DNA from: Saccoglossus kowalevskii
Taxonomy: Eukaryota > Hemichordata > Enteropneusta > Harrimaniidae
DNA length: 56,577 bases
Reading direction: 5' to 3'
NCBI RefSeq assembly: GCF_000003605.2
Contig: NW_003128576.1
Span: forward strand, 1 to 56,577
Under the pieces are notes generated by a model. That model was not told where the DNA came from and searched no databases. It saw only the letters and a program-made list of their open reading frames with translations. Positions within the stretch are counted from its first letter, which is position 1. Each line of letters begins with the position of its first letter. Positions 21,509-52,068 of the stretch are shown here, piece by piece. The translations under genes were made by a program, and so were the position numbers.

Positions 21509-23088
21509 TGTATCCTTGAATATTTGATGAGTGTTCGATGAATGATTTGAAAGTCAATTCTATCCTTAAATATTTGGTGGCGGGTTGATGAATGGTTTGA
21601 AAATCAATTGTATTCTTAAATATTTGGCGGGTGTTCGATGAATGGTTTGAAATTCAATTTTATCCTTAAATATTTGGTGGTGGGTCAATGAATGGTTTGA
21701 AAATCAAATGTATTCTTAAATATTTGGTGGTGGGTCAATGAATGGTTTGAAAATCAATTGTATCCTTAAATATTTGGTGGTGGGTCAATAAATGGTTTGA
21801 AAATCAATTGTATCCTTAAATATTTGGTGGGTATTCGATGAATGGTTTGAAAATCAATTGTATCCTTACATATTAGGTGGGTATTCGATGAATGGTTTGA
21901 AAATCAATTGTATTCTTAAATATTTGGTGGTGGGTCAATCAATTGTATCCTTAAATATTTGGTGGTGGGTCAATAAATGGTTTGAAAATCAATTGTATCC
22001 TTAAAAATTTGGTGAGTATTCGATGAATGGTTTGAAAATCAATTGTATCCTTAAATATTTGGTGGGTATTCGATGAATGGTTTGAAAATCAATTGTATTC
22101 TTAAATATTTAGTGGTGGGTGTTCAATGAATGGTTTGAAAATCAAATGTATCCTTAGATATTTGGTGGGCATTTGATGAATGGTTTGAAAACCAATTGTA
22201 TCCTTAAATATTTGGTGGGCGGGTCAATGAATGGTTTGAAAATCAATTGTATCCTTGGATATTTGATGGGTGTTCGATGAATGATTTGAAAGTCATTTCT
22301 ATCCTTAAATATTTGGTGTCGGGTTGATGAATGGTTTGAAAATCAATTGTATCCTTAAATATTTGGTGGGTGTTCAACGAATGGTTTGAAAATCAATTAT
22401 ATCCTTAAATATTTGGTGGGTGTTCGATGAATGGTTTGAAAATCAATTATATTCTTAAATATTTGGTGGTGGGTCAATGAATGGTTTGAAAATCAATTGT
22501 ATCCTTAAATATTTGGTGGCGGGTTGATGAATAGTTTGAAAGTCAATTCTATCCTTAAATATTTGGTGGGTATTCGATGAATGGTTTGAAAATCAATTGT
22601 ATCCTTAAATATTTGGTGGTGGGTCAATGAATGGTTTGAAAATCAATTGTATTCTTAAATATTTGGCGGGTGTTCGATGAATGGTTTCAAAATCAATTGT
22701 ATCCTTAAAAATTTGGTGGTGGGTCAATGAATGGCTTGAAAATCAATTGTATTCCTATATATTTGGAGGGTGTTCGATGAATGGTTTGAAAATCAATTGT
22801 ATTCTTAAATATTTGGCGGGTGTTCGATGAATGGTTTGAAATACAATTTTATCCTTAAATATTTGGTGGTGGGTCAATGAATGGTTTGAAAATCAAATGT
22901 ATTCTTAAATATTTGGTGGTGGGTCAATGAATGGTTTGAAATTCAATTGTATCCTTAAATATTTGGTGGTGGGTCAATAAATGGTTTGAAAATCAATTGT
23001 ATCCTTAAATATTTGGTGGGTATTCGATGAATGGTTTGAAAATCAATTGTATCCTTAAATATTTGGTGGGTATTCGATGAATGGTTTG
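21509..23088 (+). repeat. Long duplicated segment, partner at 50489-52068
   Basis: 1,580 bp align gap-free at an offset of exactly 28,980. I see three substitutions, in TTAAAAATTTGGTGAG near 22005, CCTTGGATATT near 22257 and GTTCAACGAATGG near 22378. Rare variants shared by both include TTACATATTAGGTGGG, GGTGAGTATTCG, GGGCATTTGATG, GTCATTTCTATCC, GGTGTCGGGTTG, TTCCTATATATTT and AAATACAATTTTATCC. Confidence 0.9.
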
Positions 23089-24540
23089 AAAATCAATTGT
23101 ATTCTTAAATATTTAGTGGTGGGTGTTCAATGAATGGTTTGAATATCAAATGTATCCTTAGATATTTGGTGGGCATTCGATGAATGGTTTGAAAACCAAT
23201 TGTATCCTTACATATTTGGTGGACGGGTCAATGAATGGTTTGAAAATCAATTGTATCCTTGAATATTTGATGGGTGTTCGATGAATGATTTGAAAGTCAA
23301 TTCTATCCTTAAATATTTGGTGGCGGGTTGATGAATGGTTTGAAAATCAATTGTATCCTTAAATATTTGGTGGGTGCTCAATGAATGGTTTGAAAATCAA
23401 TTGTATCCTTAAATATTTGGTGGGTATTCGATGAATGGTTTGAAAATCAATTGTATTCTTAAATATTTAGTGGCGGGTGTTCAATGAATGGTTTGAAAAT
23501 CAAATGTATCCTTAGATATTTGGTGGGCATTCGATGAATGGTTTGAAAACCAATTGTATCCTTGAATATTTGATGAGTGTTCGATGAATGATTTGAAAGT
23601 CAATTCTATCCTTAAATATTTGGTGGCGGGTTGATGAATGGTTTGAAAATCAATTGTATCCTTAAATATTTGGTGGGTGTTCAATGAATGGTTTGAAAAT
23701 CAATTATATCCTTAAATATTTGGTGGGTGTTCGATGAATGGTTTGAAAATCAATTATATTCTTGAATATTTGGTGGTGGGTCAATGAATGGTTTGAAAAT
23801 CAATTGTATCCTTAAATATTTGGTGGCGGGTTGATGAATGGTTTGAAAGTCAATTCTATCCTTAAATATTTGGTGGCGGGTTGATGAATGGTTTGAAAAT
23901 CAATTGTATCCTTGAATATTTGGTGGGCATTCGATGAATGGTTTGAAAACCAATTGTATCCTTAAATATTTGGTGGGCGGGTCAATGAATGGTTTGAAAA
24001 TCAATTGTATCCTTGAATATTTGATGGGTGTTCGATGAATGATTTGAAAGTCAATTCTATCCTTAAATATTTGGTGGCGGGTTGATGAATGGTTTGAAAA
24101 TCAATTGTATCCTTGAATATTTGATGGGTGTTCGATGAATGATTTGAAAGTCAATTCTATCCTTAAATATTTTGGTGGCGGGTTGATGAATGGTTTGAAA
24201 ATCAATTGTATCCTTAAATATTTGGTGGGTGTTCAATGAATGGTTTGAAAATCAATTATATCCTTAAATATTTGGTGGGTGTTCGATGAATGGTTTGAAA
24301 ATCAATTATATTCTTAAATATTTGGTGGTGGGTCAATGAATGGTTTGAAAATCAATTGTATCCTTAAATATTTGGTGGCGGGTTGATGAATAGTTTGAAA
24401 GTCAATTCTATCCTTAAATATTTGGTGGCGGGTTGATGAATGATTTGAAAATCAATTGTATCCTTAAATATTTGGTGGTGGGTCAATGAATGGTTTGAAA
24501 ATCAATTGTATTCTTAAATATTTGGCGGGTGTTCGATGAA
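23089..24540 (+). repeat. Mosaic satellite block
   Basis: It holds C with TTGAATATC, E with TTACATATTTGG and GGTGGACGGG, a second B-C-D near 23400-23550, then a D-to-F joint with GATGAGTG, and two F-G units in succession near 24000-24170. There is one extra T in ATATTTTGGTGGCGGG near 24170. It ends at O 24541. Confidence 0.74.
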
Positions 24541-24590
24541 TGGTTTCAAAATCAATTGTATCCTTAAAAATTTGGTGGTGGGTCAATGAA
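24541..24590 (+). repeat. Monomer O, register marker of the HOR
   Basis: O is unique in having TGGTTTCAAAATC and TTAAAAATTTGG. I find it starting at 1323, 2866, 4210, 6051, 6801, 8206, 9812, 11552, 12841, 14920, 15624, 16981, 17986, 19747, 22682, 24541, 25880, 27219, 28624, 29628, 30631, 31972, 34118, 35824, 37331, 38281, 38681, 40594, 41235, 42794, 44682, 47429, 48881, 49835, 51662 and 54723 (36 copies). Spacings range from 400 to about 3,060 bp and cluster at about 1,004, 1,339-1,344 and 1,405, which shows a mosaic rather than a regular HOR. Confidence 0.9.
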
Positions 24591-25137
24591 TGGCTTGAAA
24601 ATCAATTGTATTCTTAAATATTTGGAGGGTGTTCGATGAATGGTTTGAAAATCAATTGTATTCTTAAATATTTGGTGGTGGGTCAATGAATGGTTTGAAA
24701 ATCAATTGTATTCTTAAATATTTGGAGGGTGTTCGATGAATGGTTTGAAAATCAATTGTATTCTTAAATATTTGGTGGTAGGTCAATGAATGGTTTGAAA
24801 ATCAATTGTATTCTTAAATATTTGGCGGGTGTTCGATGAATGGTTTGAAATTCAATTTTATCCTTAAATATTTGGTGGTGGGTCAATGAATGGTTTGAAA
24901 ATCAAATGTATCCTTAAATATTTGGTGGTGGGTCAATGAATGGTTTGAAAATCAATTGTATCCTTAAATATTTGGTGGTGGGTCAATAAATGGTTTGAAA
25001 ATCAATTGTATCCTTAAATATTTGGTGGGTATTCGATGAATGGTTTGAAAATCAATTGTATCCTTAAATATTTGGTGGGTATTCGATGAATGGTTTGAAA
25101 ATCAATTGTATTCTTAAATATTTGGTGGTGGGTCAAT

Positions 25138-25175
25138 CAATTGTATCCTTAAATATTTGGTGGTGGGTCAATAAA
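25138..25175 (+). repeat. Unit U, 35-bp truncated monomer
   Basis: GGGTCAAT is joined straight to CAATTG, so 15 bp including TGGTTTG are missing. The ends of the lost piece share AAT, as in a slippage or microhomology deletion. The same junction occurs at 1769/1770, 3462/3463, 5713/5714, 11213/11214, 12098/12099, 13137/13138, 14177/14178, 21200/21201, 21939/21940, 25137/25138, 26476/26477, 31229/31230, 33476/33477, 43792/43793, 46636/46637, 50281/50282 and 50919/50920. Almost all sit between B' and A. Confidence 0.92.
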
Positions 25176-25275
25176 TGGTTTGAAAATCAATTGTATCCTT
25201 AAATATTTGGTGGGTATTCGATGAATGGTTTGAAAATCAATTGTATCCTTAAATATTTGGTGGGTATTCGATGAA

Positions 25276-25328
25276 TGGTTTGAAAATCAATTGTATTCTT
25301 AAATATTTAGTGGTGGGTGTTCAATGAA
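25276..25328 (+). repeat. Monomer C, 53-bp length variant
   Basis: The linker is AGTGGTGGGTGTTCA, 15 bp instead of 12. It looks like the GGTGGTGGG start of one linker class joined to the TGTTCA end of another. About 55 copies occur across the window, nearly always between a B-type unit with TTGTATTC and a D unit with TCAAATG. The reference copy is given here; others start near 119, 1909, 12236, 36118 and 55073. Its 3-bp gain shifts reading frame and nucleosome spacing relative to 50-bp units. Confidence 0.85.
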
Positions 25329-25378
25329 TGGTTTGAAAATCAAATGTATCCTTAGATATTTGGTGGGCATTCGATGAA

Positions 25379-25429
25379 TGGTTTGAAAACCAATTGTATC
25401 CTTAAATATTTGGTGGGCGGGTCAATGAA
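25379..25429 (+). repeat. Monomer E, 51-bp length variant
   Basis: E starts TGGTTTGAAAACC and has the 13-bp linker GGTGGGCGGGTCA, one base longer than usual. Linker alleles include GGTGGGCGGATCA, GGTGGGCAGGTCA and GGTGGACGGGTCA, each shared by groups of copies. A few copies have fallen back to 12 bp (GGTGGTGGGTCA near 258). Confidence 0.82.
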
Positions 25430-25879
25430 TGGTTTGAAAATCAATTGTATCCTTGAATATTTGATGGGTGTTCGATGAATGATTTGAAAGTCAATTCTAT
25501 CCTTAAATATTTGGTGGCGGGTTGATGAATGGTTTGAAAATCAATTGTATCCTTAAATATTTGGTGGGTGTTCAATGAATGGTTTGAAAATCAATTATAT
25601 CCTTAAATATTTGGTGGGTGTTCGGTGAATGGTTTGAAAATCAATTATATTCTTAAATATTTGGTGGTGGGTCAATGAATGGTTTGAAAATCAATTGTAT
25701 CCTTAAATATTTGGTGGCGGGTTGATGAATAGTTTGAAAGTCAATTCTATCCTTAAATATTTGGTGGCGGGTTGATGAATGATTTGAAAATCAATTGTAT
25801 CCTTAAATATTTGGTGGTGGGTCAATGAATGGTTTGAAAATCAATTGTATTCTTAAATATTTGGCGGGTGTTCGATGAA

Positions 25880-27218
25880 TGGTTTCAAAATCAATTGTAT
25901 CCTTAAAAATTTGGTGGTGGGTCAATGAATGGCTTGAAAATCAATTGTATTCTTAAATATTTGGAGGGTGTTCGATGAATGGTTTGAAAATCAATTGTAT
26001 TCTTAAATATTTGGTGGTGGGTCAATGAATGGTTTGAAAATCAATTGTATTCTTAAATATTTGGAGGGTGTTCGATGAATGGTTTGAAAATCAATTGTAT
26101 TCTTAAATATTTGGTGGTAGGTCAATGAATGGTTTGAAAATCAATTGCATTCTTAAATATTTGGCGGGTGTTCGATGAATGGTTTGAAATTCAATTTTAT
26201 CCTTAAATATTTGGTGGTGGGTCAATGAATGGTTTGAAAATCAAATGTATTCTTAAATATTTGGTGGTGGGTCAATGAATGGTTTGAAAATCAATTGTAT
26301 CCTTAAATATTTGGTGGTGGGTCAATAAATGATTTGAAAATCAATTGTATCCTTAAATATTTGGTGGGTATTCGATGAATGGTTTGAAAATCAATTGTAT
26401 CCTTAAATATTTGGTGGGTATTCGATGAATGGTTTGAAAATCAATTGTATTATTAAATATTTGGTGGTGGGTCAATCAATTGTATCCTTAAATATTTGCT
26501 GGTGGGTCAATAAATGGTTTGAAAATCAATTGTATCCTTAAATATTTGGTGGGTATTCGATGAATGGTTTGAAAATCAATTGTATTCTTAAATATTTGGT
26601 GGGTATTCGATGAATGGTTTGAAAATCAATTGTATTCTTAAATATTTAGTGGTGGGTGTTCAATGAATGGTTTGAAAATCAAATGTATCCTTAGATATTT
26701 GGTGGGCATTCGATGAATGGTTTGAAAACCAATTGTATCCTTAAATATTTGGTGGGCGGGTCAATGAATGGTTTGAAAATCAATTGTATCCTTGAATATT
26801 TGATGGGTGTTCGATGAATGATTTGAAAGTCAATTCTATTCTTAAATATTTGGTGGCGGGTTGATGAATGGTTTGAAAATCAATTCTATCCTTAAATATT
26901 TGGTGGGTGTTCAATGAATGGTTTGAAAATCAATTATATCCTTAAATATTTGGTGGGTGTTCGATAAATGGTTTGAAAATCAATTATATTCTTAAATATT
27001 TGGTGGTGGGTCAATGAATGGTTTGAAAATCAATTGTATCCTTAAATATTTGGTGGCGGGTTGATGAATAGTTTGAAAGTCAATTCTATCCTTAAATATT
27101 TGGTGGCGGGTTGATGAATGGTTTGAAAATCAATTGTATCCTTAAATATTTGGTGGTGGGTCAATGAATGGTTTGAAAATCAATTGTATTCTTAAATATT
27201 TGGCGGGTGTTCGATGAA
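25880..27218 (+). repeat. 27-monomer HOR, second tandem copy, 1,339 bp
   Basis: It follows the reference copy directly, with the same 27 monomers in the same order and the same length. By eye I count about 11 substitutions and no indels against 24541-25879, about 0.8%. Private changes include TGCATTC in Q, ATAAATGATTTG at the first A, TTATTAAAT in B', TTGCTGG in U and TTCGATAAAT where the reference has TTCGGTGAAT. This is the only place in the window where two full 27-mers are adjacent. Confidence 0.92.
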
Positions 27219-28340
27219 TGGTTTCAAAATCAATTGTATTCTTAAAAATTTGGTGGTGGGTCAATGAATGGCTTGAAAATCAATTGTATTCTTAAATATT
27301 TGGAGGGTGTTCGATGAATGGTTTGAAAATCAATTGTATTCTTAAATATTTGGCGGGTGTTCGATGAATGGTTTGAAATTCAATTTTATCCTTAAATATT
27401 TGGTGGTGGGTCAATGAATGGTTTGAAAACCAAATGTATTCTTAAATATTTGGTGGGCGGATCAATGAATGGTTTGAAAATCAATTGTATCCTTGAATAT
27501 TTGATGGGTGTTCGATGAATGATTTGAAAGTCAATTCTATCCTTAAATATTTGGTGGCGGGTTGATGAATGGTTTGAAAATCAATTGTATTCTTAAATAT
27601 TTGGTGGTGGGTCAATGAATGGTTTGAAAATCAATTGTATCCTTAAATATTTGGTGGTGGGTCAATGAATGGTTTGAAAATCAATTGTTTTCTTAAATAT
27701 TTGGTGGTGGGTCAATGAATGGTTTGAAAATCAATTGTATCCTTAAATATTTGGTGGTGGGTTAATGAATGGTTTGAAAATCAATTATATCCTTAAATTT
27801 TTGGTGGGTATTCGATGAATGGTTTGAAAATCAATTGTATCCTTAAGTATTTGGTGGGTATTCGATGAATGGTTTGAAAATCAATTGTATTCTTAAATAT
27901 TTAGTGGTGGGTGTTCAATGAATGGTTTGAAAATCAAATGTATCCTTAGATATTTGGTGGGCATTCGATGAATGGTTTGAAAACCAATTGTATCCTTAAA
28001 TATTTGGTGAGCGGGTCAATGAATGGTTTGGAAATCAATTGTATCCTTGAATATTTGATGAGTGTTCGATGAATGATTTGAAAGTCAATTCTATCCTTAA
28101 ATATTTGGTGGCGGGTTGATGAATGGTTTGAAAATCAATTGTATCCTTAAATATTTGGTGGGTGTTCAATGAATGGTTTGAAAATCAATTATATCCTTAA
28201 ATATTTGGTGGGTGTTCGATGAATGGTTTGAAAATCAATTATATTCTTGAATATTTGGTGGTGGGTCAATGAATGGTTTGAAAATCAATTGTATCCTTAA
28301 ATATTTGGTGGCGGGTTGATGAATGGTTTGAAAGTCAATT
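26841..28340 (+). repeat. 1,500-bp duplicated segment, partner at 33740-35239
   Basis: Gap-free alignment at offset 6,899 with about four substitutions. Both copies have the unusual O form with TTGTATTCTTAAAAATTTGG, the S-to-E junction (AACCAAATGTATTC followed by GGTGGGCGGATCA), TTGTTTTCTTAAAT, GGTGGTGGGTTAATG, AAATTTTTGG and AAGTATTTGG. They part at 28341/35240, where this copy joins GTCAATTG to an H-like unit. Confidence 0.9.
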
Positions 28341-28623
28341 GTATCCTTAAATATTTGGTGGGTGTTCAATGAATGGTTTGAAAATCAATTATATCCTTAA
28401 ATATTTGGTGGGTGTTCGATGAATGGTTTGAAACTCAATTATATTCTTAAATATTTGGTGGTGGGTCAATGAATGGTTTGAAAATCAATTGTATCCTTAA
28501 ATATTTGGTGGCGGGTTGATGAATAGTTTGAAAGTCAATTCTATCCTTAAATATTTGGTGGTGGGTCAATGAATGGTTTGAAAATCAATTGTATTCTTAA
28601 ATATTTGGCGGGTGTTCGATGAA

Positions 28624-29627
28624 TGGTTTCAAAATCAATTGTATCCTTAAAAATTTGGTGGTGGGTCAATGAATGGCTTGAAAATCAATTGTATTCCTAT
28701 ATATTTGGAGGGTGTTCGATGAATGGTTTGAAAATCAATTGTATTCTTAAATATTTGGCGGGTGTTCGATGAATGGTTTGAAATTCAATTTTATCCTTAA
28801 ATATTTGGTGGTGGGTCAATGAATGGTTTGAAAATCAAATGTATTCTTAAATATTTGGTGGTGGGTCAATGAATGGTTTGAAATTCAATTGTATCCTTAA
28901 ATATTTGGTGGTGGGTCAATAAATGGTTTGAAAATCAATTGTATCCTTAAATATTTGGTGGGTATTCGATGAATGGTTTGAAAATCAATTGTATCCTTAA
29001 ATATTTGGTGGGTATTCGATGAATGGTTTGAAAATCAATTGTATTCTTAAATATTTAGTGGTGGGTGTTCAATGAATGGTTTGAATATCAAATGTATCCT
29101 TAGATATTTGGTGGGCATTTGATGAATGGTTTGAAAACCAATTGTATCCTTAAATATTTGGTGGGCGGGTCAATGAATGGTTTGAAAATCAATTGTATCC
29201 TTGAATATTTGATGGGTGTTCGATGAATGATTTGAAAGTCATTTCTATCCTTAAATATTTGGTGTCGGGTTGATGAATGGTTTGAAAATCAATTGTATCC
29301 TTAAATATTTGGTGGGTGTTCAATGAATGGTTTGAAAATCAATTATATCCTTAAATATTTGGTGGGTGTTCGATGAATGGTTTGAAAATCAATTATATTC
29401 TTAAATATTTGGTGGTGGGTCAATGAATGGTTTGAAAATCAATTGTATCCTTAAATATTTGGTGGCGGGTTGATGAATAGTTTGAAAGTCAATTCTATCC
29501 TTAAATATTTGGTGGGTATTCGATGAATGGTTTGAAAATCAATTGTATCCTTAAATATTTGGTGGTGGGTCAATGAATGGTTTGAAAATCAATTGTATTC
29601 TTAAATATTTGGCGGGTGTTCGATGAA
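28624..29627 (+). repeat. 20-monomer HOR, 1,004 bp
   Basis: O-P-Q-R-S-T-A-B-C-D-E-F-G-H-I-J-K-L-M-N without the q1-q3 or B'-U additions. The length equals 20 x 50 plus 3 (C) plus 1 (E). P carries TTCCTATATATTTGG, C is followed by TTGAATATCAAATG, D ends GGCATTTGATG and G carries GTCATTTCTATCC: a set of rare variants that recurs in other copies and allows subfamilies to be traced. Confidence 0.9.
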
Positions 29628-30630
29628 TGGTTTCAAAATCAATTGTATCCTTAAAAATTTGGTGGTGGGTCAATGAATGGCTTGAAAATCAATTGTATTC
29701 CTATATATTTGGAGGGTGTTCGATGAATGGTTTGAAAATCAATTGTATTCTTAAATATTTGGCGGGTGTTCGATGAATGGTTTGAAATACAATTTTATCC
29801 TTAAATATTTGGTGGTGGGTCAATGAATGGTTTGAAAATCAAATGTATTCTTAAATATTTGGTGGTGGGTCAATGAATGGTTTGAAAATCAATTGTTTTC
29901 TTAAATATTTGGTGGTGGGTCAATGAATGGTTTGAAAATCAACTGTATCCTTAAATATTTGGTGGTGGGTTAATGAATGGTTTGAAAATCAATTATATCC
30001 TTAAATTTTTGGTGGCGGAGTCGATGAATGGTTTGAAAATCAATTGTATTCTTAAATATTTATGTGGTGGGTGTTCAATGAATGGTTTGAAAATCAAATG
30101 TATCAGATATTTGGTGGGCATTCGATGAATGGTTTGAAAACCAATTGTATCCTTAAATATTTGGTGGGCGGGTCAATGAATGGTTTGAAAATCAATTGTA
30201 TCCTTGAATATTTGATGGGTGTTCGATGAATGATTTGAAAGTCAATTCTATCCTTAAATATTTGGTGGCGGGTTGATGAATGGTTTGAAAATCAATTGTA
30301 TCCTTAAATATTTGGTGGGTGCTCAATGAATGGTTTGAAAATCAATTATATCCTTAAATATTTGGTGGGTGTTCGATGAATGGTTTGAAAATCAATTATC
30401 TTCTTAAATATTTGGTGGTGGGTCAATGAATAGTTTGAAAATCAATTGTATCCTTAAATATTTGGTGGCGGGTTGATGAATAGTTTGAAAGTCAATTATA
30501 TCCTTAAATATTTGGTGGCGGGTTGATGAATGATTTGAAAATCAATTGTATCCTTAAATATTTGGTGGTGGGTCAATGAATGGTTTGAAAATCAATTGTA
30601 TTCTTAAATATTTGGCGGGTGTTCGATGAA
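29628..30630 (+). repeat. Chimeric 20-monomer HOR, 1,003 bp
   Basis: It begins as O-P-Q-R-S with TTCCTATATATTTGG and AAATACAATTTTATCC, then switches to three units of the alternative module (TTGTTTTCTTAAAT, CAACTGTATCC, AAATTTTTGG) in place of T-A-B, and resumes at C. C has an extra base (TTTATGTGG), the linker before it reads GGTGGCGGAGTCG, and D has lost three bases (TGTATCAGATATTT). These indels explain 1,003 bp. It looks like a recombinant of two HOR subfamilies. Confidence 0.85.
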
Positions 30631-31971
30631 TGGTTTCAAAATCAATTGTATCCTTAAAAATTTGGTGGTGGGTCAATGAATGGCTTGAAAATCAATTGTA
30701 TTCTTAAATATTTGGAGGGTGTTCGATGAATGGTTTGAAAATCAATTGTATTCTTAAATATTTGGTGGTGGGTCAATGAATGGTTTGAAAATCAATTGTA
30801 TTCTTAAATATTTGGAGGGTGTTCGATATGAATGGTTTGAAAATCAATTGTATTCTTAAATATTTGGTGGTAGGTCAATGAATGGTGTGAAAATCAATTG
30901 TATTCTTAAATATTTGGCGGGTGTTCGATGAATGGTTTGAAATTCAATTTTATCCTTAAATATTTGGTGGTGGGTCAATGAATGGTTTGAAAATCAAATG
31001 TATTCTTAAATATTTGGTGGTGGGTCAATGAATGGTTTGAAAATCAATTGTATCCTTAAATATTTGGTGGTGGGTCAATAAATGGTTTGAAAATCAATTG
31101 TATCCTTAAATATTTGGTGGGTATTCGATGAATGGTTTGAAAATCAATTGTATCCTTAAATATTTGGTGGGTATTCGATGAATGGTTTGAAAATCAATTG
31201 TATTCTTAAATATTTTGTGGTGGGTCAATCAATTGTATCCTTAAATATTTGGTGGTGGGTCAATAAATGGTTTGAAAATCAATTGTATCCTTAAATATTT
31301 GGTGGGTATTCGATGAATGGTTTGAAAATCAATTGTATCCTTAACTATTTGGTGGGTATTCGATGAATGGTTTGAAAATCAATTGTATTCTTAAATATTT
31401 AGTGGTGGGTGTTCAATGAATGGTTTGAAAATCAAATGTATCCTTAGATATTTGGTGGGCATTCGATGAATGGTTTGAAAACCAATTGTATCCTTAAATA
31501 TTTGGTGGGCGGGTCAATGAATGGTTTGAAAATCAATTGTATCCTTGAATATTTGATGGGTGTTCGATGAATGATTTGAAAGTCAATTCTATCCTTAAAT
31601 ATTTGGTGGCGGGTTGATGAATGGTTTGAAAATCAATTGTATCCTTAAATATTTGGTGGGTGTTCAATGAATGGTTTGAAAATCAATTATATCCTTAAAT
31701 ATTTGGTGGGTGTTCGATGAATGGTTTGAAAATCAATTATATTCTTAAATATTTGGTGGTGGGTCAATGAATGGTTTGAAAATCAATTGTATCCTTAAAT
31801 ATTTGGTGGCGGGTTGATGAATAGTTTGAAAGTCAATTCTATCCTTAAATATTTGGTGGCGGGTTGATGAATGGTTTGAAAATCAATTGTATCCTTAAAT
31901 ATTTGGTGGTGGGTCAATGAATGGTTTGAAAATCAATTGTATTCTTAAATATTTGGCGGGTGTTCGATGAA
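30631..31971 (+). repeat. 27-monomer HOR copy, 1,341 bp
   Basis: Full O to N order with q1-q3 and the U unit (junction 31229/31230). The 2-bp excess over 1,339 is an AT insertion in TTCGATATGAATGG near 30825-30832. It contains TGGTGTGAAAATC near 30883 as a private change. Confidence 0.9.
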
Positions 31972-33739
31972 TGGTTTCAAAATCAATTGTATCCTTAAAA
32001 ATTTGGTGGTGGGTCAATGAATGGCTTGAAAATCAATCGTATTCTTAAATATTTGGAGGGTGTTCGATGAATGGTTTGAAAATCAATTGTATTCTTAAAT
32101 ATTTGGCGGGTGTTCGATGAATGGTTTGAAATTCAATTTTATCCTTAAATATTTGGTGGTGGGTCAATGAATGGTTTGAAAATCAAATGTATTCTTAAAT
32201 ATTTGGTGGTGGGTCAATGAATGGTTTGAAAATCAATTGTATCCTTAAATATTTGGTGGTGGGTCAATAAATGGTTTGAAAATCAATTGTATCCTTAAAT
32301 ATTTGGTGGGTATTCGATGAATGGTTTGAAAATCAATTGTATACTTAAATATTTGGTGGGTATTCGATGAATGGTTTGAAAATCAATTGTATTCTTAAAT
32401 ATTTAGTGGTGGGTGTTCAATGAATGGTTTGAAAATCAAATGTATCCTTAGATATTTGGTGGGCATTCGACGAATGGTTTGAAAACCAATTGTATCCTTA
32501 AATATTTGGTGGGCGGATCAATGAATGGTTTGAAAATCAATTGTATCCTTGAATATTTGATGGGTGTTCGATGAATGATTTGAAAGTCAATTCTATCCTT
32601 AAATATTTGGTGGCGGGTTGATGAATGGTTTGAAAATCAATTGTATTCTTAAATATTTGGTGGTGGGTCAATGAATGGTTTGAAAATCAATTGTATCCTT
32701 AAATATTTGGTGGTGGGTCAATGAATGGTTTGAAAATCAATTGTATCCTTAAATATTTGGTGGTGGGTCAATAAATGGTTTGAAAATCAATTGTATCCTT
32801 AAATTTTGGGTGGGTATTCGATGAATGGTTTGAAAATCAATTGTATCCTTAAGTATTTGGTGGGTATTCGATGAATGGTTTGAAAATCAATTGTATTCTT
32901 AAATAATTAGTGGTGGGTGTTCAATGAATGGTTTGAAAATCAAATGTATCCTTAGATATTTGGTGGGCATTCGATGAATGGTTTGAAAACCAATTGTATC
33001 CTTAAATATTTGGTGGGCGGGTCAATGAATGGTTTGGAAATCAATTGTATCCTTGAATATTTGATGAATGTTCGATGAATGATTTGAAAGTCAATTCTAT
33101 CCTTAAATATTTGGTGGCGGGTTGATGAATGGTTTGAAAATCAATTGTATTCTTAAATATTTGGCGGGTGTTCGATGAATGGTTTGAAATTCAATTTTAT
33201 CTTTAAATATTTGGTGGTGGGTCAATGAATGGTTTGAAAATCAAATGTATTCTTAAATATTTGGTGGTGGGTCAATGAATGGTTTGAAAATCAATTGTAT
33301 CCTTAAATATTTGGTGGTGGGTCAATAAATGGTTTGAAAATCAATTGTATCCTTAAATATTTGGTGGGTATTCGATGAATGGTTTGAAAATCAATTGTAT
33401 CCTTAAATATTTGGTGGGTATTCGATGAATGGTTTGAAAATCAATTGTATTCTTAAATATTTGGTGGTGGGTCAATCAATTGTATCCTTAAATATTTGGT
33501 GGTGGGTCAATAAATGGTTTGAAAATCAATTGTATCCTTAAATATTTGGTGGGTATTCGATGAATGGTTTGAAAATCAATTGTATCCTTAAATATTTGGT
33601 GGGTATTCGATGAATGGTTTGAAAATCAATTGTATTCTTAAATATGTAGTGGTGGGTGTTCAATGAATGGTTTGAAAATCAAATGTATCCTTAGATATTT
33701 GTTGGGCATTCGATGAATGGTTTGAAAACCAATTGTATC
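31972..33739 (+). repeat. Mosaic satellite block
   Basis: O-P-Q-R-S-T-A-B-C-D-E-F-G is followed by the alternative module (ATTTTGGGTGGG near 32803, AAGTATTTGG near 32851, AATAATTAGTGG near 32904, GATGAATGTTCG near 33062). R-S-T-A-B-B'-U (33476), A-B-C (TATGTAGTGG) and D (TTTGTTGGGC) come next. The AATAATTAGTGG allele of C is shared with 141 and 43220. Confidence 0.75.
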
Positions 33740-35239
33740 CTTAAATATTTGGTGGCGGGTTGATGAATGGTTTGAAAATCAATTGTATCCTTAAATATTT
33801 GGTGGGTGTTCAATGAATGGTTTGAAAATCAATTATATCCTTAAATATTTGGTGGGTGTTCGATGAATGGTTTGAAAATCAATTATATTCTTAAATATTT
33901 GGTGGTGGGTCAATGAATGGTTTGAAAATCAATTGTATCCTTAAATATTTGGTGGCGGGTTGATGAATAGTTTGAAAGTCAATTCTATCCTTAAATATTT
34001 GGTGGCGGGTTGATGAATGGTTTGAAAATCAATTGTATCCTTAAATATTTGGTGGTGGGTCAATGAATGGTTTGAAAATCAATTGTATTCTTAAATATTT
34101 GGCGGGTGTTCGATGAATGGTTTCAAAATCAATTGTATTCTTAAAAATTTGGTGGTGGGTCAATGAATGGCTTGAAAATCAATTGTATTCTTAAATATTT
34201 GGAGGGTGTTCGATGAATGGTTTGAAAATCAATTGTATTCTTAAATATTTGGCGGGTGTTCGATGAATGGTTTGAAATTCAATTTTATCCTTAAATATTT
34301 GGTGGTGGGTCAATGAATGGTTTGAAAACCAAATGTATTCTTAAATATTTGGTGGGCGGATCAATGAATGGTTTGAAAATCAATTGTATCCTTGAATATT
34401 TGATGGGTGTTCGATGAATGATTTGAAAGTCAATTCTATCCTTAAATATTTGGTGGCGGGTTGATGAATGGTTTGAAAATCAATTGTATTCTTAAATATT
34501 TGGTGGTGGGTCAATGAATGGTTTGAAAATCAATTGTATCCTTAAATATTTGGTGGTGGGTCAATGAATGGTTTGAAAATCAATTGTTTTCTTAAATATT
34601 TGGTGGTGGGTCAATGAATGGTTTGAAAATCAACTGTATCCTTAAATATTTGGTGGTGGGTTAATGAATGGTTTGAAAATCAATTATATCCTTAAATTTT
34701 TGGTGGGTATTCGATGAATGGTTTGAAAATCAATTGTATCCTTAAGTATTTGGTGGGTATTCGATGAATGGTTTGAAAATCAATTGTATTCTTAAATATT
34801 TAGTGGTGGGTGTTCAATGAATGGTTTGAAAATCAAATGTATCCTTAGATATTTGGTGGGCATTCGATGAATGGTTTGAAAACCAATTGTATCCTTAAAT
34901 ATTTGGTGGGCGGGTCAATGAATGGTTTGGAAATCAATTGTATCCTTGAATATTTGATGAGTGTTCGATGAATGATTTGAAAGTCAATTCTATCCTTAAA
35001 TATTTGGTGGCGGGTTGATGAATGGTTTGAAAATCAATTGTATCCTTAAATATTTGGTGGGTGTTCAATGAATGGTTTGAAAATCAATTATATCCTTAAA
35101 TATTTGGTGGGTGTTCGATGAATGGTTTGAAAATCAATTATATTCTTGAATATTTGGTGGTGGGTCAATGAATGGTTTGAAAATCAATTGTATCCTTAAA
35201 TATTTGGTGGCGGGTTGATGAATGGTTTGAAAGTCAATT
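33740..35239 (+). repeat. 1,500-bp duplicated segment, partner at 26841-28340
   Basis: It differs from the partner by CAACTGTATCC near 34632 and by the consensus state at three sites. The left edge follows a junction that joins D (GTTGGGCATTCG) to an H-type unit, also seen at about 37864-37960. The first part therefore has a third relative at about 37853-38418 (offset about 4,163). Confidence 0.88.
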
Positions 35240-37330
35240 CTATCCTTAAATATTTGGTGGCGGGTTGATGAATGGTTTGAAAATCAATTGTATCCTTGAA
35301 TATTTGGTGGGCATTCGATGAATGGTTTGAAAACCAATTGTATCCTTAAATATTTGGTGGGCGGGTCAATGAATGGTTTGAAAATCAATTGTATCCTTGA
35401 ATATTTGATGGGTGTTCGATGAATGATTTGAAAGTCAATTCTATCCTTAAATATTTGGTGGCGGGTTGATGAATGGTTTGAAAATCAATTGTATCCTTAA
35501 ATATTTGGTGGGTGTTCAATGAATGGTTTGAAAATCAATTATATCCTTAAATATTTGGTGGGTGTTCGATGAATGGTTTGAAAATCAATTATATTCTTAA
35601 ATATTTGGTGGTGGGTCAATGAATGGTTTGAAAATCAATTGTATCCTTAAATATTTGGTGGCGGGTTGATGAATAGTTTGAAAGTCAATTCTATCCTTAA
35701 ATATTTGGTGGCGGGTTGATGAATGGTTTGAAAATCAATTGTATCCTTAAATATTTGGTGGTGGGTCAATGAATGGTTTGAAAATCAATTGTATTCTTAA
35801 ATATTTTGCGGGTGTTCGATGAATGGTTTCAAAATCAATTGTATCCTTAAAAATTTGGTGGTGGGTCAATGAATGGCTTGAAAATCAATTGTATTCTTAA
35901 ATATTTGGAGGGTGTTCGATGAATGGTTTGAAAATCAAATGTATTCTTAAATATTTGGTGGTGGGTCAATGAATGGTTTGAAATTCAATTGTATCCTTAA
36001 ATATTTGGTGGTGGGTCAATAAATGGTTTGAAAATCAATTGTATCCTTAAATATTTGGTGGGTATTCGATGAATGGTTTGAAAATCAATTGTATCCTTAA
36101 ATATTTGGTGGGTATTCGATGAATGGTTTGGAAATCAATTGTATTCTTAAATATTTAGTGGTGGGTGTTCAATGAATGGTTTGAAAATCAAATGTATCCT
36201 TAGATATTTGGTGGGCATTCGATGAATGGTTTGAAAACCAATTGTATCCTTGAATATTTGATGGGTGTTCGATGAATGATTTGAAAGTCAATTCTATCCT
36301 TAAATATTTGGTGGCGGGTTGATGAATGGTTTGAAAATCAATTGTATTCTTAAATATTTGGTGGTGGGTCAATGAATGGTTTGAAAATCAATTGTATCCT
36401 TAAATATTTGGTGGTGGGTCAATGAATGGTTTGAAAATCAATTGTATTCTTAAATATTTGGTGGTGGGTCAATGAATGGTTTGAAAATCAATTGTATCCT
36501 TAAATATTTGGTGGTGGGTCAATAAATGGTTTGAAAATCAATTGTATCCTTAAATTTTTGGTGGGTATTCGATGAATGGTTTGAAAATCAATTGTATCCT
36601 TAAGTATTTGGTGGGTATTCGATGAATGGTTTGAAAATCAATTGTATTCTTAAATATTTAGTGGTGGGTGTTCGATGAATGGTTTGAAAATCAAATGTAT
36701 CCTTAAATATTTGGTGGGTGTTCGATGAATGGTTTGAAAACCAATTGTATTCTTAAATATTTGGCGGGTGTTCGATGAATGGTTTGGAAATCAATTTTAT
36801 CCTTAAATATTTGATGAGTGGGTCAATGAATGGTTTGAAAACCAAATGTATTCTTAAATATTTGGTGGTGGGTCAACGAATGGTTTGAAAATCAATTGTA
36901 TCCTTAAATATTTGGTGGTGGGTCAATAAATGGTTTGAAAATCAATTGTATCCTTAAATATTTGGTGGGTATTTGATGAATGGTTTGAAAATCAATTGTA
37001 TCCTTAAATATTTGGTGGGTATTCGATGAATGGTTTGAAAATCAATTGTATCCTTAAATATTTGGTGGGTGTTCGATGAATGGTTTGAAAATCAATTATA
37101 TTCTTAAATATTTGGTGGTGGGTCAATGAATGGTTTGAAAATCAATTGTATCCTTAAATATTTGGTGGCGGGTTGATGAATAGTTTGAAAGTCAATTCTA
37201 TCCTTAAATATTTGGTGGCGGGTTGATGAATGATTTGAAAATCAATTGTATCCTTAAATATTTGGTGGTGGGTCAATGAATGGTTTGAAAATCAATTGTA
37301 TTCTTAAATATTTGGCGGGTGTTCGATGAA
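35240..37330 (+). repeat. Mosaic satellite block
   Basis: It continues with L-like, M, D/E, F to N with ATATTTTGCGGG, O at 35824 and P. P is followed by S directly near 35930 (Q-R missing). T-A-B-C-D comes next, then D joined to F near 36250. The alternative module at 36550-36610 has a C whose linker ends TTCGATG rather than TTCAATG, and an F/R hybrid with GATGAGTGGGTCAATG near 36812. Confidence 0.74.
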
Positions 37331-40593: not shown

Positions 40594-40916
40594 TGGTTTC
40601 AAAATCAATTGTATCCTTAAAAATTTGGTGGTGGTCAATGAATGGCTTGAAAATCAATTGTATTCTTAAATATTTGGAGGGTGTTCGATGAATGGTTTGA
40701 AAATCAATTGTATTCTTAAATATTTGGCGCGTGTTCGATGAATGGTTTGAAATTCAATTTTATCCTTAAATATTTGGTGGTGGGTCAATGAATGGTTTGA
40801 AAATCAATGTATTCTTAAATATTTGGTGGTGGGTCATGAATGGATTGAAATCAATTGTATCCTTAATATTTGGTGTGGGTCATAATGGTTTGAAAATCAA
40901 TTGTATCCTTAATATT
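40594..40916 (+). repeat. Satellite with clustered one-base losses
   Basis: O-P-Q-R-S-T-A in order, but with GGTGGTCAATG near 40632, TCAATGTATTC near 40806, GGGTCATGAATGGATTG near 40832 and CCTTAATATTTGGTGTGGG near 40862. The order is normal; only single bases are lost, mostly in short runs. Confidence 0.76.
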
Positions 40917-41591
40917 TGGTGGGTATTCAATGAATGGTTTGAAAATCAATTATATCCTTAAATATTTGGTGGGTGTTCGATGAATGGTTTGAAAATCAAT
41001 TATATTCTTAAATATTTGGTGGTGGGTCAATGAATGGTTTGAAAATCAATTGTATCCTTAAATATTTGGTGGCGGGTTGATGAATAGTTTGAAAGTCAAT
41101 TCTATCCTTAAATATTTGGTGGCGGGTTGATGAATGGTTTGAAAATCAATTGTATCCTTAAATATTTGGTGGTGGGTCAATGAATGGTTTGAAAATCAAT
41201 TGTATTCTTAAATATTTTGCGGGTGTTCGATGAATGGTTTCAAAATCAATTGTATCCTTAAAAATTTGGTGGTGGGTCAATGAATGGCTTGAAAATCAAT
41301 TGTATTCTTAAATATTTGGCGGGTGTTCGATGAATGGTTTGAAATTCAATTTTATCCTTAAATATTTGGTGGTGGGTCAATGAATGGTTTGAAAATCAAA
41401 TGTATTCTTAAATATTTGGTGGTGGGTCAATGAATGGTTTGAAATTCAATTGTATCCTTAAATATTTGGTGGTGGGTCAATAAATGGTTTGAAAATCAAT
41501 TGTATCCTTAAATATTTGGTGGGTATTCGATGAATGGTTTGAAAATCAATTGTATCCTTAAATATTTGGTGGGTATTCGATGAATGGTTTG
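40917..41591 (+). repeat. Duplicated segment, partner at 48563-49237
   Basis: About 675 bp that I read as identical at offset 7,646. Shared markers are GGTGGGTATTCAATG, ATATTTTGCGGG and a P unit that ends in GGCGGGTGTTCG instead of GGAGGGTGTTCG (P joined to Q). It ends where this copy takes the TTTGGAAATC form. Confidence 0.86.
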
Positions 41592-47979: not shown

Positions 47980-48888
47980 TGGTTTGAAAATCAAATGTAT
48001 CCTTGAATATTTGATGAGTGTTCGATGAATGATTTGAAAGTCAATTCTATCCTTAAATATTTGGTGGCGGGTTGATGAATGGTTTGAAAATCAATTGTAT
48101 CCTTAAATATTTGGTGGGTGTTCAATGAATGGTTTGAAAATCAATTATATCCTTAAATATTTGGTGGGTGTTCGATGAATGGTTTGAAAATCAATTATAT
48201 TCTTGAATATTTGGTGGTGGGTCAATGAATGGTTTGAAAATCAATTGTATCCTTAAATATTTGGTGGCGGGTTGATGAATGGTTTGAAAGTCAATTCTAT
48301 CCTTAAATATTTGGTGGCGGGTTGATGAATGGTTTGAAAATCAATTGTATCCTTGAATATTTGGTGGGCATTCGATGAATGGTTTGAAAACCAATTGTAT
48401 CCTTAAATATTTGGTGGGCGGGTCAATGAATGGTTTGAAAATCAATTGTATCCTTGAATATTTGATGGGTGTTCGATGAATGATTTGAAAGTCAATTCTA
48501 TCCTTAAATATTTGGTGGCGGGTTGATGAATGGTTTGAAAATCAATTGTATCCTTAAATATTTGGTGGGTATTCAATGAATGGTTTGAAAATCAATTATA
48601 TCCTTAAATATTTGGTGGGTGTTCGATGAATGGTTTGAAAATCAATTATATTCTTAAATATTTGGTGGTGGGTCAATGAATGGTTTGAAAATCAATTGTA
48701 TCCTTAAATATTTGGTGGCGGGTTGATGAATAGTTTGAAAGTCAATTCTATCCTTAAATATTTGGTGGCGGGTTGATGAATGGTTTGAAAATCAATTGTA
48801 TCCTTAAATATTTGGTGGTGGGTCAATGAATGGTTTGAAAATCAATTGTATTCTTAAATATTTTGCGGGTGTTCGATGAATGGTTTCA
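47980..48888 (+). repeat. Duplicated segment, partner at 8911-9819
   Basis: Copy 39.1 kb downstream of its partner. Just to the left, D carries the three-base loss TGTATCAGATATTT near 47898-47910, otherwise seen only near 30103. Its right part overlaps the other duplication, 48563-49237. Confidence 0.85.
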
Positions 48889-49237
48889 AAATCAATTGTA
48901 TCCTTAAAAATTTGGTGGTGGGTCAATGAATGGCTTGAAAATCAATTGTATTCTTAAATATTTGGCGGGTGTTCGATGAATGGTTTGAAATTCAATTTTA
49001 TCCTTAAATATTTGGTGGTGGGTCAATGAATGGTTTGAAAATCAAATGTATTCTTAAATATTTGGTGGTGGGTCAATGAATGGTTTGAAATTCAATTGTA
49101 TCCTTAAATATTTGGTGGTGGGTCAATAAATGGTTTGAAAATCAATTGTATCCTTAAATATTTGGTGGGTATTCGATGAATGGTTTGAAAATCAATTGTA
49201 TCCTTAAATATTTGGTGGGTATTCGATGAATGGTTTG
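48563..49237 (+). repeat. Duplicated segment, partner at 40917-41591
   Basis: Partner of 40917-41591. Its left portion is also shared with 9494-9819, so three loci share the GGTGGGTATTCAATG version of H. Confidence 0.85.
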
Positions 49238-50488
49238 AAAATCAATTGTATTCTTAAATATTTAGTGGTGGGTGTTCAATGAATGGTTTGAATATCAAAT
49301 GTATCCTTAGATATTTGGTGGGCATTCGATGAATGGTTTGAAAACCAATTGTATCCTTAAATATTTGGTGGGCGGGTCAATGAATGGTTTGAAAATCAAT
49401 TGTATCCTTGAATATTTGATGGGTGTTCGATGAATGATTTGAAAGTCAATTCTATCCTTAAATATTTGGTGGCGGGTTGATGAATGGTTTGAAAATCAAT
49501 TGTATCCTTAAATATTTGGTGGGTGCTCAATGAATGGTTTGAAAATCAATTATATCCTTAAATATTTGGTGGGTGTTCGATGAATGGTTTGAAAATCAAT
49601 TATATTCTTAAATATTTGGTGGTGGGTCAATGAATGGTTTGAAAATCAATTGTATCCTTAAATATTTGGTGGCGAGTTGATGAATAGTTTGAAAGTCAAT
49701 TCTATCCTTAAATATTTGGTGGCGGGTTGATGAATGATTTGAAAATCAATTGTATCCTTAAATATTTGGTGGTGGGTCAATGAATGGTTTGAAAATCAAT
49801 TGTATTCTTAAATATTTGGCGGGTGTTCGATGAATGGTTTCAAAATCAATTGTATCCTTAAAAATTTGGTGGTGGGTCAATGAATGGCTTGAAAATCAAT
49901 TGTATTCTTAAATATTTGGAGGGTGTTCGATGAATGGTTTGAAAATCAATTGTATTCTTAAATATTTGGTGGTAGGTCAATGAATGGTTTGAAAATCAAT
50001 TGTATTCTTAAATATTTGGCGGGTGTTCGATGAATGGTTTGAAATTCAATTTTATCCTTAAATATTTGGTGGTGGGTCAATGAATGGTTTGAAAATCAAA
50101 TGTATTCTTAAATATTTGGTGGTGGGTCAATGAATGGTTTGAAAATCAATTGTATCCTTAAATATTTGGTGGTGGGTCAATAAATGGTTTGAAAATCAAT
50201 TGTATCCTTAAATATTTGGTGGGTATTCGATGAATGGTTTGAAAATCAATTGTATTCTTAAATATTTGGTGGTGGGTCAATCAATTGTATCCTTAAATAT
50301 TTGGTGGTGGGTCAATAAATGGTTTGAAAATCAATTGTATCCTTAAATATTTGGTGGGTATTCGATGAATGGTTTGAAAATCAATTGTATCCTTAAATAT
50401 TTGGTGGGTATCGATGAATGAGTTTGAAAATCAATTGTATTCTTAAATATTTAGTGGTGGGTGTTCAATGAATGGTTTGAAAATCAAA
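49238..50488 (+). repeat. Mosaic satellite block
   Basis: C with TTGAATATC, D to N (GTGCTCAATG in H, GGTGGCGAGTTG in K), O at 49835, P, then only the q3 unit (GGTGGTAGGTCA) of the q series before Q. R to B' and U follow at 50281/50282. GGGTATCGATGAATGAGTTTG near 50407 carries a loss and a gain of one base. Confidence 0.76.
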
Positions 50489-52068
50489 TGTATCCTTGAA
50501 TATTTGATGAGTGTTCGATGAATGATTTGAAAGTCAATTCTATCCTTAAATATTTGGTGGCGGGTTGATGAATGGTTTGAAAATCAATTGTATTCTTAAA
50601 TATTTGGCGGGTGTTCGATGAATGGTTTGAAATTCAATTTTATCCTTAAATATTTGGTGGTGGGTCAATGAATGGTTTGAAAATCAAATGTATTCTTAAA
50701 TATTTGGTGGTGGGTCAATGAATGGTTTGAAAATCAATTGTATCCTTAAATATTTGGTGGTGGGTCAATAAATGGTTTGAAAATCAATTGTATCCTTAAA
50801 TATTTGGTGGGTATTCGATGAATGGTTTGAAAATCAATTGTATCCTTACATATTAGGTGGGTATTCGATGAATGGTTTGAAAATCAATTGTATTCTTAAA
50901 TATTTGGTGGTGGGTCAATCAATTGTATCCTTAAATATTTGGTGGTGGGTCAATAAATGGTTTGAAAATCAATTGTATCCTTAAATATTTGGTGAGTATT
51001 CGATGAATGGTTTGAAAATCAATTGTATCCTTAAATATTTGGTGGGTATTCGATGAATGGTTTGAAAATCAATTGTATTCTTAAATATTTAGTGGTGGGT
51101 GTTCAATGAATGGTTTGAAAATCAAATGTATCCTTAGATATTTGGTGGGCATTTGATGAATGGTTTGAAAACCAATTGTATCCTTAAATATTTGGTGGGC
51201 GGGTCAATGAATGGTTTGAAAATCAATTGTATCCTTGAATATTTGATGGGTGTTCGATGAATGATTTGAAAGTCATTTCTATCCTTAAATATTTGGTGTC
51301 GGGTTGATGAATGGTTTGAAAATCAATTGTATCCTTAAATATTTGGTGGGTGTTCAATGAATGGTTTGAAAATCAATTATATCCTTAAATATTTGGTGGG
51401 TGTTCGATGAATGGTTTGAAAATCAATTATATTCTTAAATATTTGGTGGTGGGTCAATGAATGGTTTGAAAATCAATTGTATCCTTAAATATTTGGTGGC
51501 GGGTTGATGAATAGTTTGAAAGTCAATTCTATCCTTAAATATTTGGTGGGTATTCGATGAATGGTTTGAAAATCAATTGTATCCTTAAATATTTGGTGGT
51601 GGGTCAATGAATGGTTTGAAAATCAATTGTATTCTTAAATATTTGGCGGGTGTTCGATGAATGGTTTCAAAATCAATTGTATCCTTAAAAATTTGGTGGT
51701 GGGTCAATGAATGGCTTGAAAATCAATTGTATTCCTATATATTTGGAGGGTGTTCGATGAATGGTTTGAAAATCAATTGTATTCTTAAATATTTGGCGGG
51801 TGTTCGATGAATGGTTTGAAATACAATTTTATCCTTAAATATTTGGTGGTGGGTCAATGAATGGTTTGAAAATCAAATGTATTCTTAAATATTTGGTGGT
51901 GGGTCAATGAATGGTTTGAAATTCAATTGTATCCTTAAATATTTGGTGGTGGGTCAATAAATGGTTTGAAAATCAATTGTATCCTTAAATATTTGGTGGG
52001 TATTCGATGAATGGTTTGAAAATCAATTGTATCCTTAAATATTTGGTGGGTATTCGATGAATGGTTTG
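50489..52068 (+). repeat. Long duplicated segment, partner at 21509-23088
   Basis: Copy of the segment 29.0 kb upstream at about 99.8% identity by eye. At its left edge a deletion joins C/D directly to F (TCAAATG then CCTTGAATATTTGATGAG), which the partner lacks. At its right edge it switches to the TTTGGAAATC form of the B-to-C unit. Confidence 0.9.

Follow-up and report, generated by a model that had tools for sequence, protein, structure and literature searches.

Near-identical stretches of about 0.5–1.5 kb recur in this satellite array a few kilobases or tens of kilobases apart with nearly equal likelihood. Such even spacing suggests that short pieces are copied across long distances, beyond mere swapping between neighbours. 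On balance, we favour short, homology-guided, out-of-register copying, with a reach of roughly at least 35 kb, as the main remodeller of the array. The relation of similarity to distance is nearly flat, the shared blocks are short, and both long collinearity and two-sided register are missing; the biochemistry of the copying and a reach past the window are what we infer.

The window – the whole stretch of 56,577 nucleotides that was analysed – is satellite DNA in the sense of a long head-to-tail run of monomers with no break (Table 1). The first recognised monomer starts at base 28, and AT content from base counts is 0.684. Monomers are exactly 50 bp long in 957 of 1,132 cases, with lengths after splitting of 35–54 bp, and comprise 220 distinct sequences, 29 of them frequent variants. 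No reverse-oriented monomer or inverted segment was found across the 1,132 monomers. Length-changed monomers cluster, for example around 9771–10266, 40603–40944 and 56487–56577, which suggests an uneven consensus. A truncated monomer carrying a 15-bp deletion occupies 17 unclustered sites across 49 kb (KS p = 0.58) and is probably the tracer of a single event, dispersed through the window.

An exact match to a 29-base consensus was absent from viral and prokaryote contigs, one 27-mer unit had no match among plasmids (low-complexity filter on), and a string search found none of nine consensus strings of the array printed in the open-access subset of the literature. PisTR-B (Pisum) is a tentative lead to the satellite's identity and no more. 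Excerpts of the relevant papers describe pea PisTR-B as an abundant, AT-rich repeat with a 50-bp monomer and circular DNA of continuous size (PMC2543021, PMC3380829, PMC2206039); the window shares the monomer length, and the AT content reported there is 0.72 against the 0.684 found here. PMC6304655 names GenBank AF300830 as the accession of PisTR-B/1; no PisTR-B sequence appears in the excerpts of that paper or of PMC13389026.

The preliminary description had spoken of higher-order-repeat segments and of two full 27-mers side by side. These adjacent copies, 24541–25879 and 25880–27218, align without gaps and with 11 mismatches in 1,339 positions, as originally estimated. As a general unit the 27-mer did not hold up, its path being followed with at most two class changes in three stretches only (2020–4418, 24049–27377 and 29937–32130), while windows of 20 monomers yield 999 distinct words among 1,113. 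The 27-mer is thus a local form, and a regular higher-order repeat of the alpha-satellite type – a fixed multimonomer unit in many tandem repeats – was not found in the window.

Table 1. Coordinates of the array, its truncated monomers and selected near-identical blocks
Feature	Position(s)	Strand	Remarks
50-bp satellite array	1–56577	+	head-to-tail, uninterrupted; 1,132 monomers of ~50 bp
35-bp truncated monomer, 17 copies	1732–50916 (span)	+	all with the same 15-bp deletion
Truncated monomer starts, copies 1–9	1732, 3425, 5676, 11176, 12061, 13100, 14140, 21163, 21902	+	
Truncated monomer starts, copies 10–17	25100, 26439, 31192, 33439, 43755, 46599, 50244, 50882	+	
Tandem pair of 27-mer units	24541–27218	+	11 differences in 1,339
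Young block, 30 monomers	21552–23040	+	3 edits vs 50532–52020, 29.0 kb off
Partner of 21552–23040	50532–52020	+	
Young block, 17 monomers	14729–15582	+	1 edit vs 54532–55384, 39.8 kb off
Partner of 14729–15582	54532–55384	+	
Word DLYUBOHZaBcSFB	7210–7914	+	14 monomers identical to 55081–55785, 47.9 kb off
Young block, 27 monomers	26978–28332	+	2 edits vs 33877–35231, 6.9 kb off

Pairwise alignment bore out the distant resemblances as well. The segments 21509–23088 and 50489–52068 differ, gap-free, by 3 mismatches in 1,580; for 14725–15590 and 54528–55392 the single gap column stood, together with one mismatch that the earlier count had missed. Parts of the block at 50532–52020 also match 16336–17339 (34.7 kb away, 1 edit in 20 monomers) and 28983–29886 (22.0 kb away, 1 edit in 18 monomers). 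The 17-monomer block and its partner have the rare monomer-type string RNQBMCCTDLYU in common, and a 16-monomer extension of the word at 7210, to 8014, is identical to 34778–35582.

That similarity does not fall with distance had been proposed from a few such pairs, and the array as a whole agrees. Pairs of 10-monomer windows with at least 98% identity occur at 47–63 per 10,000 in every lag bin between 1.5 and 50 kb, with 90 at 1.0–1.5 kb, at most 16 below 1 kb and 20 at 50–56 kb. Among in-phase pairs, edits show no significant relation to distance. In the strict set, in which all 10 of 10 classes agree (n = 262), the Spearman coefficient is 0.025, a value reached in 385 of 999 permutations; in the wider set, in which 8 of 10 agree (n = 952), it is 0.002, reached in 481 of 999. 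The 59 youngest near-identical blocks, which share families and so are not 59 independent events, lie a median of 16.2 kb apart, against 16.6 kb for random pairs (KS p = 0.998); for the 27 scoring at least 12, p is 0.34.

Distance is nonetheless not wholly without effect. Mean identity goes from 0.994 at 0–2 kb (n = 10) to 0.988 at 40–57 kb (n = 17) in the strict set and from 0.981 (n = 50) to 0.978 (n = 67) in the wider set; the farthest bin is the lowest and the nearest the highest or nearly so, so that the end bins lean in the expected direction, with the trend absent between them. For the 38 monomer variants present in 2–3 copies, pairs lie a median of 9,675 bp apart where the null mean is 16,970, and one of 500 nulls goes as low; the figures are 12,647 against 16,951 for the 46 variants in 2–5 copies (3 of 500) and 16,077 against 16,716 for the 12 variants in 4–8 copies (179 of 500). 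The closeness of the rarest variants and the lean of the end bins imply that events are not wholly distance-free, and the peak of near-identical pairs at 1.0–1.5 kb indicates that local tandem duplication acts too.

Could exchange between neighbours suffice? We simulated local exchange, large exchange, exchange of log-uniform size, one- and two-ended conversion, linear insertion, circles and mixtures on monomer-type labels, in batches of 93, 28, 42, 96, 108 and 40 runs with parameters explored by hand and unfitted. In ten initial simulations (2 + 8) the starting array was a regular repeat or had no private variation; most ended far more homogeneous than the window, and we left them out of the inference. 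Local unequal sister-chromatid exchange of 0.25–3 kb units, continued for long, yields words resembling higher-order repeats, would explain why near-identical pairs peak at 1.0–1.5 kb and why two 27-mer units lie side by side and, given time, scatters copies far. Raising the number of events from 1,000 to 30,000 brings its near/far density ratio down through 13.3, 2.5 and 1.4 to the observed 1.1, but the density of near-identical pairs climbs through 73, 330 and 506 to 1,015 per 10,000, where the window has 8.0, and at 20 monomers the collinearity is 0.17–0.50, where the window has 0.013. With mutation at equilibrium, 6–10 of 29 monomer types are left on average (five settings, six runs each), and the near/far ratio is 2.3–19.8 when a mixture includes 20% local exchange and 4.0–18.5 when it includes 40%. 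Local exchange is therefore already inconsistent with the window within the range explored, and as the main process we consider it very improbable; the earlier judgement that it is insufficient alone was sound, since it gives either a steep fall, or flatness at 60–130 times the observed density or with most monomer types lost.

Events of intermediate to large size, whether unequal exchange or block duplication, with upper limits of 10, 15 or 50 kb and later erosion, give roughly flat spacing in many settings and keep diversity: exchange up to 10 kb has a near/far ratio of 1.5 and a within-class difference of 0.82, and broad sizes up to 50 kb behave similarly. The difficulty is collinearity, which in the window is 0.013 at 20 monomers over a baseline of 0.007, and averages 0.30–0.47 for exchange up to 10 kb, 0.51–0.90 for 10–50 kb, 0.18–0.31 for 95% local plus 5% large exchange and 0.31–0.70 for broad sizes. 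Single runs with broad sizes reached 0.000 in 3 of 18 settings (20 or 60 events); in the other 15 the lowest run was at least 0.08. In each of the four lag classes of the window, collinearity of near-identical pairs has sunk to baseline within 30 monomers; near-identity ends at about 1.5 kb, and farther out collinearity is not significantly above chance. At tolerances of 4, 20 and 40 monomers, the number of collinear block pairs was equalled or exceeded in 61, 59 and 410 of 500 nulls for 54 strong blocks and in 459, 195 and 412 for 270 weaker ones, in no case a significant excess. Block duplication over tens of kilobases, one of the mechanisms put forward in the preliminary description, thus loses its footing, and we give large exchange as little credence as local exchange.

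The same limit of about 1.5 kb bears on the possibility of an assembly artefact, in which misjoined repeat reads were stitched into a mosaic. The clusters of length-changed monomers hint at such an uneven consensus, but long-read misjoins or duplicated contigs would leave collinear duplicates of read length; short-read assembly might produce kilobase-scale mosaics, though hardly a satellite contig of 56 kb. We regard an artefact as improbable.

In the settings covered by our simulations, short copying with a long reach produced both a flat density and low collinearity. The density of pairs at 30–50 kb relative to 4–15 kb is 0.87 in the window; six simulated runs each gave 0–0.08 for a reach of 10 kb, 0.04–0.49 for 20 kb, 0.09–0.99 for 35 kb and 0.79–3.36 for 65 kb. 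Tracts averaging 15 monomers left a collinearity at 20 monomers of 0.084 against the observed 0.013, so real tracts are shorter or distributed otherwise than modelled. Conversion limited to 5 kb was rejected, far pairs being absent or almost absent.

The flanks of the blocks discriminate further. The fraction still in register is 0.69, 0.47, 0.39 and 0.31 over the first four monomers beyond the block ends and 0.20 by the twelfth, against a baseline of 0.17 for any pair. Counting a flank as in register when at least five of monomers 2–7 beyond the block end lie within 3 edits, register is kept on one side in 19 of 59 blocks and on both sides in none. Of long-range gene conversion, also suggested previously, the in-register form is consequently disfavoured, for it left two-sided register in 299 of 1,331 simulated blocks, with at least one in each of 24 runs; a modest excess of change points in class-collinear runs (14 of 110 at p < 0.05, 9 of 110 at p ≤ 0.01) means that some in-register exchange may occur. 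Simulated out-of-register copying yields fractions of 0.67, 0.46, 0.34 and 0.25, with two-sided register in 4 of 446 blocks. One-ended conversion and linear insertion were set aside because too few of their flanks stay in register: at the first monomer they reach 0.45 (0.27 in another batch) and 0.30, short of the 0.69 observed.

A third earlier suggestion, excision and reinsertion of circular DNA, fits about as well as out-of-register repair copying. Small circles cut out by recombination between like monomers, then reinserted by homology elsewhere in the array, reproduce in simulation the flat density, block number, end profile (0.67, 0.53, 0.43 and 0.33; two-sided in 5 of 428) and one-sided fraction: the observed 19 of 59 exceeds the 81 of 446 of out-of-register copying and is nearer the 101 of 428 of circles. 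Circular DNA of a continuous size range is reported, in an excerpted source, from plant satellites including the 50-bp PisTR-B of pea (PMC2543021). The permutation mark that circles should leave was not seen: rotated block pairs, in swapped order, number 0 among 293 blocks, whereas 10 of 12 circle runs had at least two. This test has little power, out-of-register copying itself giving none in 6 of 18 runs and at least two in 12 of 18. We rate circles as unlikely, albeit the strongest of the alternatives.

Under the out-of-register copying that we favour, a piece of ~0.5–1.5 kb (about 10–30 monomers) would be copied from a homologous site up to at least ~35 kb off, the source possibly being any place in the larger array, or other arrays. 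The piece would enter and leave through homology of single monomers but out of step with the larger repeat order, and each event would thus also gain or lose monomers. The likeliest biochemistry is ectopic double-strand-break repair, in which a strand invades a distant repeat, makes a short copy and re-anneals to any matching monomer, by synthesis-dependent annealing or abortive break-induced replication; the marks left by small satellite circles on reinsertion would look almost the same. After many rounds, mixing would outpace the divergence that mutation brings, and distance would nearly cease to predict similarity.

Parallels in other systems, each known here from excerpts, are partial. Rice CentO (PMC2834710), an irregular plant array, likewise has segmental duplications, insertions, deletions and reshuffled variant monomers; the present array differs in its 50-bp monomer and in that no inverted segment was found. 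The Populus Palv156 centromeric satellite (PMC12046899), a plant satellite of higher-order organisation, is reported to show similarity negatively related to distance, whereas no significant relation exists here within 56 kb. In the Drosophila histone array, also tandem and evolving in concert, neighbours diverge by 0.12% and copies about 30 units apart by 0.43% (PMC12400953); here, by contrast, mean in-phase identity in the wider set is 0.981 both at 2–5 kb and at 30–40 kb. Gene conversion in maize centromeres (PMC2834711) offers non-crossover exchange and linkage without decay over distance, but there markers pass from one chromosome to another, in crosses and in inbred lines, whereas copies here lie within one array and out of register.

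The uniformity of satellite arrays is an old question, to which unequal crossing-over between neighbours is the usual answer. It is possible, if doubtful, that almost all homogenisation proceeds by short-tract, out-of-register copy-and-paste with no effective distance limit over at least 50 kb, neighbour exchange making up about a tenth of events or less; if so, the array would be 'well-mixed', with a unit of turnover (~0.5–1.5 kb) far below its reach. The array allows three measurable signatures – spacing, tract length and flank register – to be used jointly; they point to short long-range copying, and any complete satellite assembly would lend itself to the same test.

The whole window is a single, uninterrupted array of an approximately 50-bp satellite. 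Splitting with a substitution-tolerant anchor, together with gap splitting, yielded 1,132 monomers (957 of 50 bp, 69 of 51, 55 of 53, 18 of 49, 17 of 35 and the remaining 16 of various lengths). They represent 220 different sequences, of which 141 occur only once. The reverse-strand anchor, allowing up to five substitutions, had no match window-wide; the strand asymmetry is that expected from uniform monomer orientation. Clusters of length-changed monomers look like lower-accuracy consensus. PisTR-B is a candidate for the family on monomer length only; AT content is somewhat different (0.684 in the window, 0.72 in PisTR-B). When every monomer is labelled with the closest of 29 frequent variants (classes), the array becomes a readable string of words: 839 monomers match their class variant exactly, and pairs differ by a mean of 0.91 edits within classes versus 6.47 between them. 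The 27-mer is merely a local form – its path, with at most two class changes, occurs in three stretches only. Across 1,113 windows of 20 monomers, 999 different words occur, and the organisation is that of a mosaic instead of a regular higher-order repeat.

Coordinates of features in the array
Feature	Position	Remark
Side-by-side 27-mers	24541-25879; 25880-27218	27 monomers each
Monomers with 15-bp deletion	1732-50916	span of sites
L-class monomer, 3 bases shorter	30092; 47891	rare-variant tracer; 17.8 kb apart
Word with rare I-A-C junction	16336; 22037; 28983; 51017	dispersed, mutually near-identical
Length-changed monomer clusters	731-929; 9771-10266; 40603-40944; 53784-53977; 56487-56577	monomer length nearly constant elsewhere; last at the window's very end, as if a contig end
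GC skew 0.46-0.50 (2-kb steps), T > A	1-56577	strong, constant

The preliminary description had held that similarity between higher-order segments does not fall with distance, and the in-phase comparisons bear this out: edits against distance gave Spearman coefficients of 0.025 (n = 262; reached in 385 of 999 permutations) and 0.002 (n = 952; 481 of 999). Its counts were reproduced for the side-by-side 27-mers (11 differences in 1,339) and for copies 28,980 bp apart (3 in 1,580); copies 39.8 kb apart do have the single gap column it reported, but also one mismatch that it missed. The share of 10-monomer window pairs with at least 98% identity stays at 47–63 per 10,000 throughout the bins between 1.5 and 50 kb; it is 90 at 1.0–1.5 kb, at most 16 below 1 kb and 20 at 50–56 kb. 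For pairs with at most two edits per 10 monomers it is 2.8–11.6 over 1.5 to 50 kb, showing no downward trend, 14.6 at 1.0–1.5 kb and 0 at 50–56 kb. In-phase identity is at or near its maximum in the nearest bins (0.994, n = 10; 0.981, n = 50) and is lowest in the farthest ones (0.988, n = 17; 0.978, n = 67). The 59 youngest blocks (near-identical block pairs, score ≥9), which share families and are not independent, lie a median 16.2 kb apart, where random pairs give 16.6 kb (KS p = 0.998); 59% of monomers are touched by blocks like these.

A mild distance effect is likely in the youngest layer, since the 38 variants with two or three copies have a median pair distance of 9,675 bp, which 1 of 500 nulls equalled or undercut, the expectation being 16,970. 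Nearest copies within 3 kb are not significantly enriched among them (0.153 versus 0.120 expected; 127 of 500 nulls), and the 12 variants with four to eight copies show no distance effect (179 of 500). Where flanks match (26 of 56 two- to three-copy pairs), distances are not significantly off random (median 10.4 kb, KS p = 0.14); the other 30, without matching flanks, do differ (median 9.7 kb, p = 0.002). Absence of decay here means no clear decay inside 56 kb; the real scale of exchange may be longer.

Seventeen monomers (35 bp) carry an identical 15-bp deletion and spread over 49 kb with no clustering (KS p = 0.58). Because TCAAT flanks the deleted stretch on both sides in the full-length sequence, one microhomology deletion followed by about 16 copyings would be a simple reading.

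Mechanisms were simulated from real class transition statistics plus private variation, later sets also using real between-class distances, with parameters hand-explored rather than fitted. The window has a near/far ratio of 1.1 at a density of 8.0 near-identical pairs per 10,000. Simulated local exchange gave 13.3 and reached 1.1 only at a density of 1,015 per 10,000; with mutation, at equilibrium, it left on average 6–10 monomer types. Exchange of intermediate to large blocks, which we consider very improbable, keeps diversity together with flat spacing at intermediate sizes, but these fail on collinearity and density. Against an observed collinearity of 0.013 at 20 monomers, exchange up to 10 kb gave 0.30–0.47 (near/far 1.2–1.5), exchange of 10–50 kb gave 0.51–0.90, and broad-size exchange gave setting means of 0.31–0.70, with single runs at 0.000 in 3 of 18 settings.

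In each of the four lag classes, collinearity of the ≥98% pairs has fallen to baseline within 30 monomers, and the two best blocks extend over 30 and 27 monomers. At tolerances of 4, 20 and 40 monomers, 54 strong blocks (lag ≥60) formed 13, 40 and 75 collinear pairs (null means 10.3, 35.1 and 80.7), and 270 weaker blocks 251, 1,062 and 2,045 (265, 1,054 and 2,088). A monomer class change marks 64 of the 118 ends of the youngest blocks. Outward from block ends the in-register fraction (≤3 edits per monomer) runs 0.69, 0.47, 0.39, 0.31, then 0.18–0.34, with 0.20 at the twelfth monomer and a baseline of 0.17 for any monomer pair. Register is kept on one side in 19 of the 59 youngest blocks and on both sides in none. 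Simulated in-register conversion produced two-sided blocks in 299 of 1,331 cases, and none of its 24 runs lacked one. The observation is matched both by out-of-register copying (4 of 446) and by reinsertion of circles (5 of 428).

Excision and reinsertion of circles strikes us as unlikely. Circular satellite DNA is documented in plants; for a 50-bp pea satellite, circles are reported to vary continuously in size (PMC2543021). Circles would be expected to leave rotated block pairs. There are 0 of these among 293 blocks, a test that cannot tell circles from copying, since at least two such pairs are common under both models (10 of 12 circle runs, 12 of 18 out-of-register copying runs). The best explanation, and on balance a probable one, is short-tract, long-reach, out-of-register copying. 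Simulated reaches of 10 or 20 kb gave too few far pairs, and local shares of 20% or 40% gave an excess of near pairs in every run (near/far at least 2.3); ratios were 0.5–4.5 at 10%, 1.8–5.0 at 5% and 0.4–2.4 with none. Two misfits attach to the model: at 20 monomers the simulations leave more collinearity (about 0.08) than is observed, and the observed one-sided register fraction lies above the model's.

Among known systems, published accounts report distance decay in Populus Palv156 HORs (PMC12046899) and the Drosophila histone array (PMC12400953), non-crossover exchange with linkage that does not decay by distance in maize centromeres (PMC2834711), satellite arrays with reshuffling (PMC2834710), and, in pea CEN6, patchy dot plots with large portions of two satellites segmentally duplicated (PMC10027222). 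Given these prior reports of decay, its absence and reshuffling, we count the array as a variant within a known kind, in which the combination of signatures is clear.
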